Positions 53,490 through 56,880 of a stretch of DNA of 64,000 nt are shown in pieces. Position numbers and translations under genes: made by a program. The stretch comes from Haloarcula hispanica ATCC 33960 (GTDB taxonomy: Archaea > Halobacteriota > Halobacteria > Halobacteriales > Haloarculaceae), in contig NC_015948.1 in the NCBI RefSeq assembly GCF_000223905.1, positions 868,001-932,000 on the forward strand, given 5' to 3'. Position 1 is the first letter of the stretch. Every line of letters starts with the position of its first letter. Under the pieces are notes generated by a model. The model saw nothing but the letters and a program-made list of their open reading frames with translations, ran no database searches and was not told the DNA's origin.

Positions 53490-54572
53490 CTACAACTCTA
53501 GCACCGTGTGTCGCGGCAGTTCGAGGTCGTAGCCGACCGCCGAAACCGTCTCAGTCGGCCAGTCGCCGGTCCCGGACAGCAGTTCGATGTCGTCGTCGGA
53601 GACGAGATACGTGTCTTCGCTCTTTGTCCCGTCGATAGTCGGGTTCCAGGCGTACCCATGTGGCAACGCGACCTCGCCCTCATGTCCAGGCGTGGCGATC
53701 CACTCACGGCCGGCGAAGCCCGTTGCGCCGCCCTGATGATGGTTCTGCCACTCACCCTCCCAGCCGACCGCGGCGTAGGCGTCCTGAATCGCGTCGAAGA
53801 CGTCGCCCGCTGTGCCGCCACCCTGACCGACCACCTGTGTCGCGGCCAGCGCAGTGGTCTCGACGCGGGCGGCCTTGTGGGTTCGCTCCATGAGCCACTC
53901 CGGCGGGTCGAACGCGACCGCCCGGGTGGTGCTGACGTGGAGCCCGTCTCGCTGGACGGTCACCGATATGAGCGCGTAGTCGCCGAGTTCAGTGTCAGTC
54001 GAGGTGTAATGGCGGTATAATTGCGCCCGCTCGGCGCTGCCAACGAGCACGACGGGCGTGGCGATGCCCCGGCCTTCGAGCTTCTGTCGAAGCACCGCGG
54101 TCACATCGAGTTCGGTATGCGAGGGTTCGACTTTCCGCGCGACAGCCTCGACTGCTTCAGCCGTGTCTCGCGCGAGGTCACGGCACTGCTTCATCTGGGT
54201 CTCGGTCAGCGGCTGTCGGAGTTGTGTGGCGTCGACTGACTCGAAGCCGGGGACATCGAAATCAGCCGCCGCCGGGGCCGGACTCGCATCAGCAACAGCC
54301 TCGGCCAGTGACTCCGCGTGCCAGTCGAACGTCGCAACGGTCACATCGCCGTCGAGTTCCTCGTCACGGAGCCGCGGCGCTTCGATGTTATTGGCGACGA
54401 CCCGTACGCCGTCGCCGTCGTAGCCCGCGGCGGCGACGCCGATGTCACCCTCCCGGTCGACGACATTGTCGCCTCCCCCTGTGAGCCATGCGAAGGAGTT
54501 CGGTCGGGCGAACCAGACGGCTTCGAGTCCCGCTGTCCGGAGATACTGGTCGAGTCGGTCTGTGAGCGTCAT
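53490..54572 (-). CDS. M24 (aminopeptidase P/creatinase) family protein with incomplete metal site
   Basis: Pita-bread-fold protein of 360 aa. An N-terminal creatinase-like domain (about 1-125) begins TLTDRLDQYLRTAGLEAVWF. In the C-terminal M24 domain the positions of the two Asp metal ligands are changed: ALISVTVQRDGLHVSTTRAV has neither of the usual Asp residues. The third ligand His is present in NHHQGGATGF, the Glu before Pro is changed (YAWNPTIDG), and the last Glu remains (SEDTYLV). It therefore resembles non-metal creatinases or an inactive homologue more than Xaa-Pro peptidases. The ATG at 54570-54572 is used; upstream codons are not family-like. Confidence 0.85.
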   Translation of the reverse strand: MTLTDRLDQYLRTAGLEAVWFARPNSFAWLTGGGDNVVDREGDIGVAAAGYDGDGVRVVANNIEAPRLRDEELDGDVTVATFDWHAESLAEAVADASPAPAAADFDVPGFESVDATQLRQPLTETQMKQCRDLARDTAEAVEAVARKVEPSHTELDVTAVLRQKLEGRGIATPVVLVGSAERAQLYRHYTSTDTELGDYALISVTVQRDGLHVSTTRAVAFDPPEWLMERTHKAARVETTALAATQVVGQGGGTAGDVFDAIQDAYAAVGWEGEWQNHHQGGATGFAGREWIATPGHEGEVALPHGYAWNPTIDGTKSEDTYLVSDDDIELLSGTGDWPTETVSAVGYDLELPRHTVLEL

Positions 54573-54700
54573 ACCCTGACATCCCGCCGGCCCCAGTAAA
54601 AACCAGGGACAACACGCGACAACAGGACTGGCGCCACAGGTCTCCCACAGCGGCAATTACGACACATATCTTGCTCCTATCGTGTTCGACGCCGCTCCTG

Positions 54701-54780
54701 ATACTGCCGGCTGTAACTATTTCAAGAGATTCGCCACCCCGAAGTGGCGATATTCTTCACAGACTTACAGCCGGCAGTAT
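54701..54780. repeat. 80-bp near-perfect palindrome (long inverted repeat)
   Basis: Outer arms ATACTGCCGGCTGTAA (54701-54716) and TTACAGCCGGCAGTAT (54765-54780) are exact inverted copies over 16 bp. Inside is a second perfect hairpin, TCGCCAC (54731-54737) / GTGGCGA (54744-54750), with the flanking AAGAgat / tatTCTT also pairing. The structure ends 3 bases before the nucleoside hydrolase stop codon at 54784-54786. It could be a terminator or RNA-stabilising hairpin, or a small mobile (MITE-like) element with terminal inverted repeats. Confidence 0.75.
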
Positions 54781-54783
54781 GAC

Positions 54784-55743
54784 TCACTCGGCGATGCCGC
54801 TGTCAGGGTCCCGGGACTGGAGCAGCGAGTACATGACGGACTGGAAGGCGTCGCTGTCGACGGATTCTACGACATGGGTGTTCGGGTCCCCGTCGGTCAC
54901 ACCGTTGACGTCGACGCTGGTGTACCCGCGGGTGAGCCCGTCGCGGTCGTCCACCGCGACGTGGTACGTCGACACCGCCTCGCGGAGTTCCGGATACGCC
55001 AGCAGCGCGGCGGTGACGCTGTCCGGGAGTGCCGTCCATCCGGGGTCATCGGGGCCCTCGCTGTTGAACGCCCGGGCCTGCTCGGTTACCGATTCGAAGA
55101 ACGACGCCAGTTCAGTGTCGAACGCCGACACCGCCTCGAACTCGGAGGAGCCAAACACTGCGTCTCGAAGACACACGCCCCAGTCGACGAGCGTCACCTC
55201 GAAGGCGTCGAACACGCGTTTGGCAGCGTCGGGGTCGACCCACAGATTGAATTCCGCGGCAGGAGTGACGTTCCCCTCACAGTTGACGTTCCCGCCCATC
55301 ACCCACACCTCATCGACAAGCTCCGGAAGTTCAGGCTCGCGGGCGTACGCCAGCGCCAGATTGGTCAGCGGGCCGATGCAGAGCAGCGTGATTTCGCCAG
55401 GGGCCGCCCGACAGCGGTCGACGATCTTGTCGGGGCCAAACCCTGCCGCCGACTCGATACCGGTGTCGGGGAACACGTCCCCGCCGAGGCCGTCCTCGCC
55501 GTGAATGTACGTCGCGTGTTCGAACTCCTTGAGAAGCGGCTGTCTCGCCCCTTCGTAGACGGGTACGTCGAGAGAATCGGCGATATCGAGCGTGTACTTC
55601 GCGTTCTCGATCTCTCTGTCGAAGGGCACGTTGCCGGCGACGACCGTGATAGCTTCGACGGTAACTCGGTCACTGAGACAGGAAAGGAGAATCGCCTGTG
55701 TGTCGTCGCCCGCGGTGTCCGTATCGATGATGACGCGTCGCAT
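54784..55743 (-). CDS. Nucleoside hydrolase (IunH/URH family)
   Basis: Calcium-dependent N-glycosidase of 319 aa that splits ribonucleosides into base and ribose. The calcium-binding N-terminus is VIIDTDTAGDDTQAILL; further family motifs are VVAGNVPFDREIENAKYTL, ITLLCIGPLTNLALA, WVMGGNVNCEGNVTPAAEF and NLWVDPDAAKRVF. The C-terminal His of the active site of many members is less clear here (THVVESVDSD). A good TATA box CATATAAAT at 55763-55771 lies 24 nt before the ATG. Nucleoside salvage or use as carbon source is likely. The palindrome follows the stop. Confidence 0.92.
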   Translation of the reverse strand: MRRVIIDTDTAGDDTQAILLSCLSDRVTVEAITVVAGNVPFDREIENAKYTLDIADSLDVPVYEGARQPLLKEFEHATYIHGEDGLGGDVFPDTGIESAAGFGPDKIVDRCRAAPGEITLLCIGPLTNLALAYAREPELPELVDEVWVMGGNVNCEGNVTPAAEFNLWVDPDAAKRVFDAFEVTLVDWGVCLRDAVFGSSEFEAVSAFDTELASFFESVTEQARAFNSEGPDDPGWTALPDSVTAALLAYPELREAVSTYHVAVDDRDGLTRGYTSVDVNGVTDGDPNTHVVESVDSDAFQSVMYSLLQSRDPDSGIAE

Positions 55744-55762
55744 ACGCCCTCGTCGTATGGCA

Positions 55763-55771
55763 CATATAAAT
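55763..55771 (-). promoter_or_regulatory. TATA box of the nucleoside hydrolase gene
   Basis: CATATAAAT is centred 24 nt before the ATG at 55741-55743. It supports this start over the 32-codon longer frame. Confidence 0.6.
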
Positions 55772-55866
55772 CGTTCCGGGACACAACTGCGTGCCACAGT
55801 TGTCTGTGCGACACTCGATAGCGGTGGGTGAACGGCCAACTGCTACGATACTGCAGACCGCCGGGG

Positions 55867-56880
55867 TTACACCATTTCGAGGCGGTAGCCGCTGTCGTCA
55901 CCGAGCGATTCGTACACGATGCGTGCGGCAGCGATGTCCTGAATCGCGAGCCCGGTCGAGTCGAAGACGGTAATCCCGGACAGGTCCTCGCGGCCCGGCG
56001 CGTTCCCGACGACGATCTCGCCGAGTTCGGCGTCGATATCCGACTCGTCGATTTCACCCGTGCTCCAGGGGACGTTTATCTCGCCGGAGTGGGTCGTCTG
56101 TTCGAAGTCGTCGATGACGAGGGTCGCCTCGCGGATGACCTCCGTGTGGAGTTCCTGCTTCCCTTCGGCGTCGGCACCCATGGCGTTGACGTGGGTGTGT
56201 TCCCCGAGGTCCTCAAGCGTGACGATGGGATCTTCGACCGGCGTCACGGTCGAGAGAACATCACACTGGGCCGCCTCGGAAATCGTGCCGGCTCGCACGT
56301 CGAACTCGTCGCCGAAGGTGTCGATGAACCGCTGGACGCGGTCGTCGTCGAGGTCGCTGACGACGACGGATTCAATCGGTCGCACCTGCGAGATGGCCTC
56401 CAGTTGCGTGTAGGACTGGACGCCGGCACCGATGATGCCCAGCGAGGACGCGTCCTCGACGGCGAGGTGGTCCGTCGCCACGGCGGCGGCCGCCCCGGTT
56501 CGCTTCATCGTCAGCGTCGTGGCGTCCATCACGGCAAGCGGGAAGCCGCTCTCGGGGTCCGTGTACACGAGCGTCCCCATCACGGTCGGCAGGTCGAACT
56601 CGTCGGGGTTGTCCGGGTGAACGTTCACCCACTTGATGCCCGACGCCTCCCAGTCGTCCGTTTCGAGATAGGCCGGCATCGACCGGAAGTCCCCGTTGTG
56701 CTGTGGCAGGTCGATGTAGGACTTCGGCGGCATCTGCGCCGTGTCGTTTTCGTATGCGGCGAACGCGGCCTCGATGGCCGGCACGAGGTCGGCCATCTCG
56801 ACGGCCGCCTCGATGTCCGTACTGGGGACGATAGTCGTCTGATTGTCCTGTCGTGCTGTCGAATATAGTGAGTTGCTCAT
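55867..56880 (-). CDS. Ornithine cyclodeaminase/mu-crystallin family protein
   Basis: NAD-dependent enzyme of 337 aa acting on an amino acid: cyclodeaminase, archaeal alanine dehydrogenase or ketimine reductase. The family pattern is seen in KSYIDLPQHNGDFRSMPAYL, GIKWVNVHPDNP, LAVMDATTLTMKRTGAAAAV, the Rossmann motif LGIIGAGVQSYTQLEAI and HVNAMGADAEGKQEL. The key catalytic Asp of ornithine cyclodeaminase is expected in IDESDIDAELGEIVVGNAPG-like context. It is last in the minus-strand set led by the NhaC transporter gene. Substrate not determined from sequence. Confidence 0.86.
   Translation of the reverse strand: MSNSLYSTARQDNQTTIVPSTDIEAAVEMADLVPAIEAAFAAYENDTAQMPPKSYIDLPQHNGDFRSMPAYLETDDWEASGIKWVNVHPDNPDEFDLPTVMGTLVYTDPESGFPLAVMDATTLTMKRTGAAAAVATDHLAVEDASSLGIIGAGVQSYTQLEAISQVRPIESVVVSDLDDDRVQRFIDTFGDEFDVRAGTISEAAQCDVLSTVTPVEDPIVTLEDLGEHTHVNAMGADAEGKQELHTEVIREATLVIDDFEQTTHSGEINVPWSTGEIDESDIDAELGEIVVGNAPGREDLSGITVFDSTGLAIQDIAAARIVYESLGDDSGYRLEMV

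Follow-up and report, generated by a model that had tools for sequence, protein, structure and literature searches.

The palindrome between the nucleoside hydrolase gene and its downstream neighbour in Haloarcula hispanica ATCC 33960 is very probably a copy of a haloarchaeal MITE, most likely moved in trans by a transposase of the IS630 group into a T-N-A target. This reading of sequence comparisons also covers the copies that lie flush with stop codons and the retained fold. The palindrome was studied within a window of 64,000 nucleotides of contig NC_015948.1, to which all positions below refer unless another record is named.

In the proposed mechanism, an IS630-group transposase supplied in trans most likely recognises the MITE ends TACTG[C/T]CGGCTGTAA. 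The enzyme would move the MITE and join it to T-N-A, preferably in the context C-TNA-G, whereby three bases are copied; insertion and duplication are demonstrated by comparison of sites. Insertions within genes are mostly lost. Stop codons, often found as C-TGA, are good targets, and the duplication restores the stop. Since the stop is both a good target and rebuilt, about half of the usable copies are located flush with the 3' end of a gene. The palindromic fold may matter as a hairpin, either for transposition or at mRNA 3' ends, and an effect of the element on the hydrolase mRNA is possible. A DNA transposon could in this way spread through gene-dense genomes at little cost, as its three-base target is often a stop codon that is rebuilt by the insertion.

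Boundaries and target site of the element

The preliminary description of the palindrome listed exact outer arms, a nested 7-bp hairpin and pairing between the two, all following the nucleoside hydrolase gene. All of this was recovered: the arms (54701-54716 and 54765-54780) pair at 16 of 16 positions, the hairpin is formed by TCGCCAC and GTGGCGA, the intervening region contributes a few pairs, and the neighbouring gene is identified as a hydrolase by Pfam (Table 1). A repeat finder gives arms of 37 nt with 81% complementarity and a 6-nt gap. Folding is strong for the + strand as DNA (z -7.1) and for the - strand as RNA (z -6.7), with none of 200 shuffles equalling either. The bases of the outermost A-T pair are part of the TGA target duplication, and the element proper therefore comprises 78 bp. 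It is too short for a transposase and contains stops in three of six frames. Both flanking genes are encoded on the - strand. The window copy is located beside a stop codon and not on one, as the hydrolase stop starts one base past the right TGA.

Table 1. Features of the palindrome locus in the window.
Feature	Position	Strand	Basis or remark
78-bp MITE, TACTGCCGGCTGTAA...TTACAGCCGGCAGTA	54702..54779	.	palindrome, copies, target repeats, empty sites
Left target repeat TGA	54699..54701	.	two here, single in relatives' empty sites
Right target repeat TGA	54780..54782	.	two here, single in relatives' empty sites
Left terminal inverted repeat (outer stem)	54702..54716	.	arm pairing; element positions 1-14 paired across copies
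Right terminal inverted repeat (outer stem)	54765..54779	.	arm pairing; pairing across copies
Inner hairpin, 7-bp stem	54731..54750	.	folding; stem covaries among copies
Nucleoside hydrolase gene, PF01156	54784..55839	-	stop codon 54784-54786; mechanical start, true start may be further in
M24-type peptidase-like gene (PF00557, 36.6 bits), next downstream	53490..54656	-	mechanical start; internal ATG near 54570 likelier

Exact T-N-A direct repeats flank 144 of the 193 copies extracted with their end motifs, namely TGA in 68 cases, TCA in 58, and TAA and TTA in nine each. The remaining 49 copies have no exact TNA repeat. The set includes three overlapping pairs and one repeat, and thus at most four double counts. 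In an earlier, stricter set, the middle base was equal on both sides in 148 of 160 copies, and the identity of this otherwise free base points to a real duplication. The target logo of the extracted copies reads C-TNA-G.

Comparison of the window locus across 32 genomes of the same genus yielded ten empty sites (L199-L208) and two occupied ones, with 20 genomes unscored due to diverged or absent flanks. Six of the ten empty sites retain TGA. Precise insertion is the economical reading of this pattern, compared with precise loss in ten genomes. Genome G001 contains the element at the same place as the window copy. At this shared site, the element (54702-54779 compared with G001:C18:106105-106184) is 98% identical, more than the 401-bp flanks at 87% and 93%, which perhaps reflects constraint or conversion. 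In a separate alignment of 53600-55900 with G013:C8:201688-203900, the left flank is 99% and the right flank 93% identical, a contrast pointing to a boundary of recombination at the insertion site or close to it.

Distribution of copies and conservation of the fold

The suggestion that the palindrome could be a MITE-like element with inverted ends is borne out by its multiple copies, their target duplications and the empty sites at the window locus, which together identify it as a MITE. In the host genome, the arm sequence, sought along the lines proposed in the preliminary description and with up to two mismatches allowed, was located 19 times per strand, compared with a single occurrence of the reversed control. 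BLAST with the window copy returned 18 distinct host-genome places at E <= 1 after both-strand matches were merged, and a typed consensus added three, giving at least 21. Among the 32 same-genus genomes (own included), 27 match the window copy and 26 the typed consensus. When one genome per species was scanned with a pattern, at least 120 stretches matched, and the 80 listed all carry haloarchaeal names. The patterns used for collecting copies demand good ends and are biased toward intact copies. Matches were also obtained in 12 plasmid records from Haloarcula, Halomicrobium, Natribaculum and Haloplanus; a copy on the second contig has the same coordinates in plasmid pHH406 of Haloarcula hispanica N601. 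The phage records searched for the element gave no matches. The element is a non-coding mobile element scattered through salt-loving archaea. A related 108-bp element with the ends TACTGGTGGCTGTAA (L096:917-1024) represents another size class of this type of element.

Haloarchaeal repeats of comparable type have been described. According to the available text of PMC3119063, the MITEs of Haloquadratum walsbyi are likewise free of a transposase and have transposon-related terminal inverted repeats and target duplications. TNA targets or placement at stop codons are not described in that text; the comparison is by description only, and those MITEs may include the present family. The Small Mobile Repeats (SMRs) of Haloquadratum resemble the present element in their inverted ends and their size of about 80-110 bp, but are described in the same partial source as having no target duplication and ends unrelated to known transposons (PMC3119063).

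Conservation of the fold was assessed with 24 copies of 78 bp that are less than 80% alike, compared with 300 column shuffles and with slid registers. Column shuffles leave relatedness in, which makes the slid registers the better control. In the outer stem, and likewise in the inner hairpin at positions 29-37, paired cells and two-sided changes exceed all 300 shuffles and the slid registers. Among these diverged copies, positions 1-14 of the outer stem are paired in 95-97% of cells. The values for positions 23-26 were reached by one to three of the 300 shuffles, and positions 15-22 pair less than the shuffles. The same picture was obtained with 37 copies at 86%. Thus, diverged copies maintain a hairpin whose internal loop is open. 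Its upkeep may be due either to selection for the fold or to palindrome-templated repair, both of which would leave a trace of covariation. The sole Rfam match of the element at E <= 1, mir-627, scored 22.5 bits against a cut-off of 86 and was taken as a chance result of the long hairpin.

A probable IS630-type partner element

Two identical elements of 1070 bp are present in the host genome; their IS630-type transposase is split over two frames. One end of this insertion sequence (IS) starts with TACTGTCGGCTG and matches 13 of the first 14 MITE bases; the other end, TACTCACGGACA, is a weak match with nine of 14. The DDE half of the transposase scores 142 bits with NF033545 and the protein at locus L234 scores 241 bits, both above the cut-off, whereas the N-terminal half of the own-genome transposase reaches 91.7 bits, below the cut-off of 100. 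The IS630-type transposase of the partner IS also matches DDE_3. The split in the own-genome copy (L227:1498-2519) is located near a run of seven T, and half-length transposase frames also occur in several relatives, with L234 and L352 each consisting of one long frame. A programmed frameshift is possible.

Related transposase loci were inspected for similar ends in two sets. In the first set of 32 loci, seven have paired TNA-flanked ends 1.0-1.1 kb apart, six of them with equal flanks; four others have only shorter pairs and 21 none. In the second set, for which TNA flanks were required and the ranking favoured equal flanks, such ends were found at 18 of 30 loci, three of the 30 repeating elements of the first set. 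Flanks were equal in 13 of these 18, and the other five have TNA on both sides with a differing middle base. When the favouring rule and the demand for TNA were dropped, 26 of the 30 loci gave a pair, and the 13 with equal flanks were all TNA. In the host genome, one IS copy lies between two TAA triplets, and its empty sites in G011 and G019 hold these three bases once; the other copy is flanked by TGA and TCA. The partner IS does not show the 2-bp TA duplication. Its duplication is a 3-bp TNA, as seen from direct repeats and from the empty sites in G011 and G019.

A transposase match at E <= 1e-20 is present in 36 of 146 genomes of the family. Genome G001, the closest relative, which has many MITE copies, gave no IS630 match at this threshold, so the MITE is not always found beside its likely helper. 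The consulted part of PMC3119063 reports that the MITEs of H. walsbyi are in some cases mobile even where the genome lacks an intact transposase. None of the IS630-type loci examined yielded an autonomous element whose ends are exactly those of the MITE. When the arms were considered as fused left and right IS ends (bases 15-26 compared), the ends sorted to neither arm clearly. In plasmid pHsi540 of Haloarcula sinaiiensis (L327:1-1277), a copy of the MITE follows a transposase gene of the IS630 family at a distance of about 280 bases.

Transposases with TNA-like 3-bp targets are also known from other families, for example the IS5-type group. A MITE belonging to such a family is an unlikely alternative, to which the single closely shared end of the own-genome IS and the occurrence of the MITE in G001 would nevertheless lend some weight. 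The 3-bp TNA duplication is, in addition, not the classical IS630/Tc1 target (partial text of PMC7386202). Against this, IS630-type elements of the host genome and of its relatives have a similar end motif and, where their flanks agree, duplicate TNA as well. Assignment to the IS630 group remains the preferred reading.

Precedents for an IS630 partner and for three-base targets exist outside the archaea. In Streptococcus pneumoniae, RUP is believed to be moved by IS630-Spn1 and is likewise a short intergenic MITE with ends resembling an IS630 element; as described in the available portion of the source, RUP is 107 bp long and has sites with TA, whereas the present element has 78 bp, is mostly foldback and duplicates TNA (PMC2229807). 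The classical duplication of Tc1/mariner elements is TA. The partner IS shares with the IS630/Tc1/mariner group a DDE transposase, of the IS630 type, and the 3-bp TAA of Fot elements (pogo group) provides a precedent for its target length, as far as the partial text of PMC7386202 goes. Unlike in Fot, the middle base is free here (TGA, TCA, TAA, TTA) and the hosts are archaeal (PMC7386202). The present family would connect a repeat found widely in haloarchaea with a group of IS630-type elements that duplicate TNA and not TA.

Stop codons as targets

The position of copies relative to genes was analysed by scoring codon usage, with the window as training set, for the 121 copies with exact repeats whose flanks extend over 600 bp at either side. 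In 58 of these, a coding-like frame ends with the duplicated triplet as its stop codon. Insertion there rebuilds the stop, since the neighbouring gene terminates with the duplicated triplet. Merging of shared flanks left 116 independent sites, of which 56 coincide with a stop and 14 lie within predicted genes. By origin, the 56 comprise seven of ten sites in the own genome, 37 of the 81 contributed by the species scan and 12 of the 25 from other sources. Relative to the gene, the element is in sense orientation at 12 of the 56 stop sites, antisense at seven and ambiguous at 37.

As a control, stop codons make up 16% of non-genic TNA sites and 32% of non-genic CTNAG sites. The logo-weighted expectation is 26% on stops, compared with 48% observed (P 4e-7). 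A local control considered the logo-weighted TNA sites 1-40 bases after stops and gave 53-62% expected on the stop, with 53 of 70 (76%) seen; with the most generous logo, P was 0.01. Strong targeting of stop codons as such is reduced by this local control. Most of the excess comes from the CTNAG preference and the loss of insertions inside genes, and a small extra preference for stop codons beyond these two is possible. It is doubtful that the transposase actively favours stop codons beyond its sequence preference, for example through the state of DNA or polymerase at gene ends, and that the element evolved for gene ends, duplicating the stop, leaving the host gene intact and providing with its conserved hairpin a portable mRNA 3' end.

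Gene-end placement also bears on an alternative in which selection at the window locus produced a plain terminator of transcription for the hydrolase gene, or a hairpin at the 3' end of its mRNA. The strong hairpin just past the stop codon fits such a function, as does the placement of 53 of the 116 sites exactly at a gene's stop codon by a stricter score. By this score, nine other sites are at 1-20 bases after a stop and 17 have no stop within 300 bases. A single copy with transcript 3' ends inside it had been named in advance as favouring a plain terminator, yet the same sequence is present at no fewer than 21 genomic places. It is also absent from the locus in ten relatives, in a presence/absence pattern with a 3-bp duplication, and its hairpin is not followed by a U-run on the transcript strand. 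The - strand of the element showed no terminator-like pattern; the only such hit belongs to the + strand and runs antisense to the two flanking genes. Origin as a terminator is therefore highly improbable. Even less probable is an IS200/IS605-type palindrome-associated element, similar to the PATEs of Haloquadratum and mobilised in single-stranded form by a Y1 transposase. Strong hairpins and the lack of a gene would agree with such an element, but PATEs are described in the consulted part of PMC3119063 as having neither terminal inverted repeats nor a duplication. The present copies have terminal inverted repeats, and three out of four (144 of 193) a 3-bp target duplication.

Among the papers listed from the open-licence literature, none describes the present family or stop-codon targeting in its title or the beginning of its abstract, and the terminal sequence strings retrieved only papers unrelated by title. 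The available parts of PMC10969869 and PMC5756416 contain nothing on haloarchaeal MITEs or stop-codon targets.

Annotated records provide examples of gene-end placement, with no unbiased rate. Of six annotated plasmid records, each inspected at its best place, one shows a coding sequence whose end is flush with the element, a universal stress protein gene of Halomicrobium urmianum; two further records carry no annotation. Two places in H. hispanica N601, chosen because they had been flagged beforehand, are both flush, with genes for a CPBP protease and an M48 metalloprotease. Such loci offer natural presence/absence pairs in a tractable archaeon, in which it can be asked whether stop-codon hairpins alter transcript ends. 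The M48 locus is occupied in two genomes, and in G003 the flanks meet with a 3-bp overlap. Among 15 scorable relatives without the element, 13 have TGA at the same codon, and the other two have TAA and TAG.
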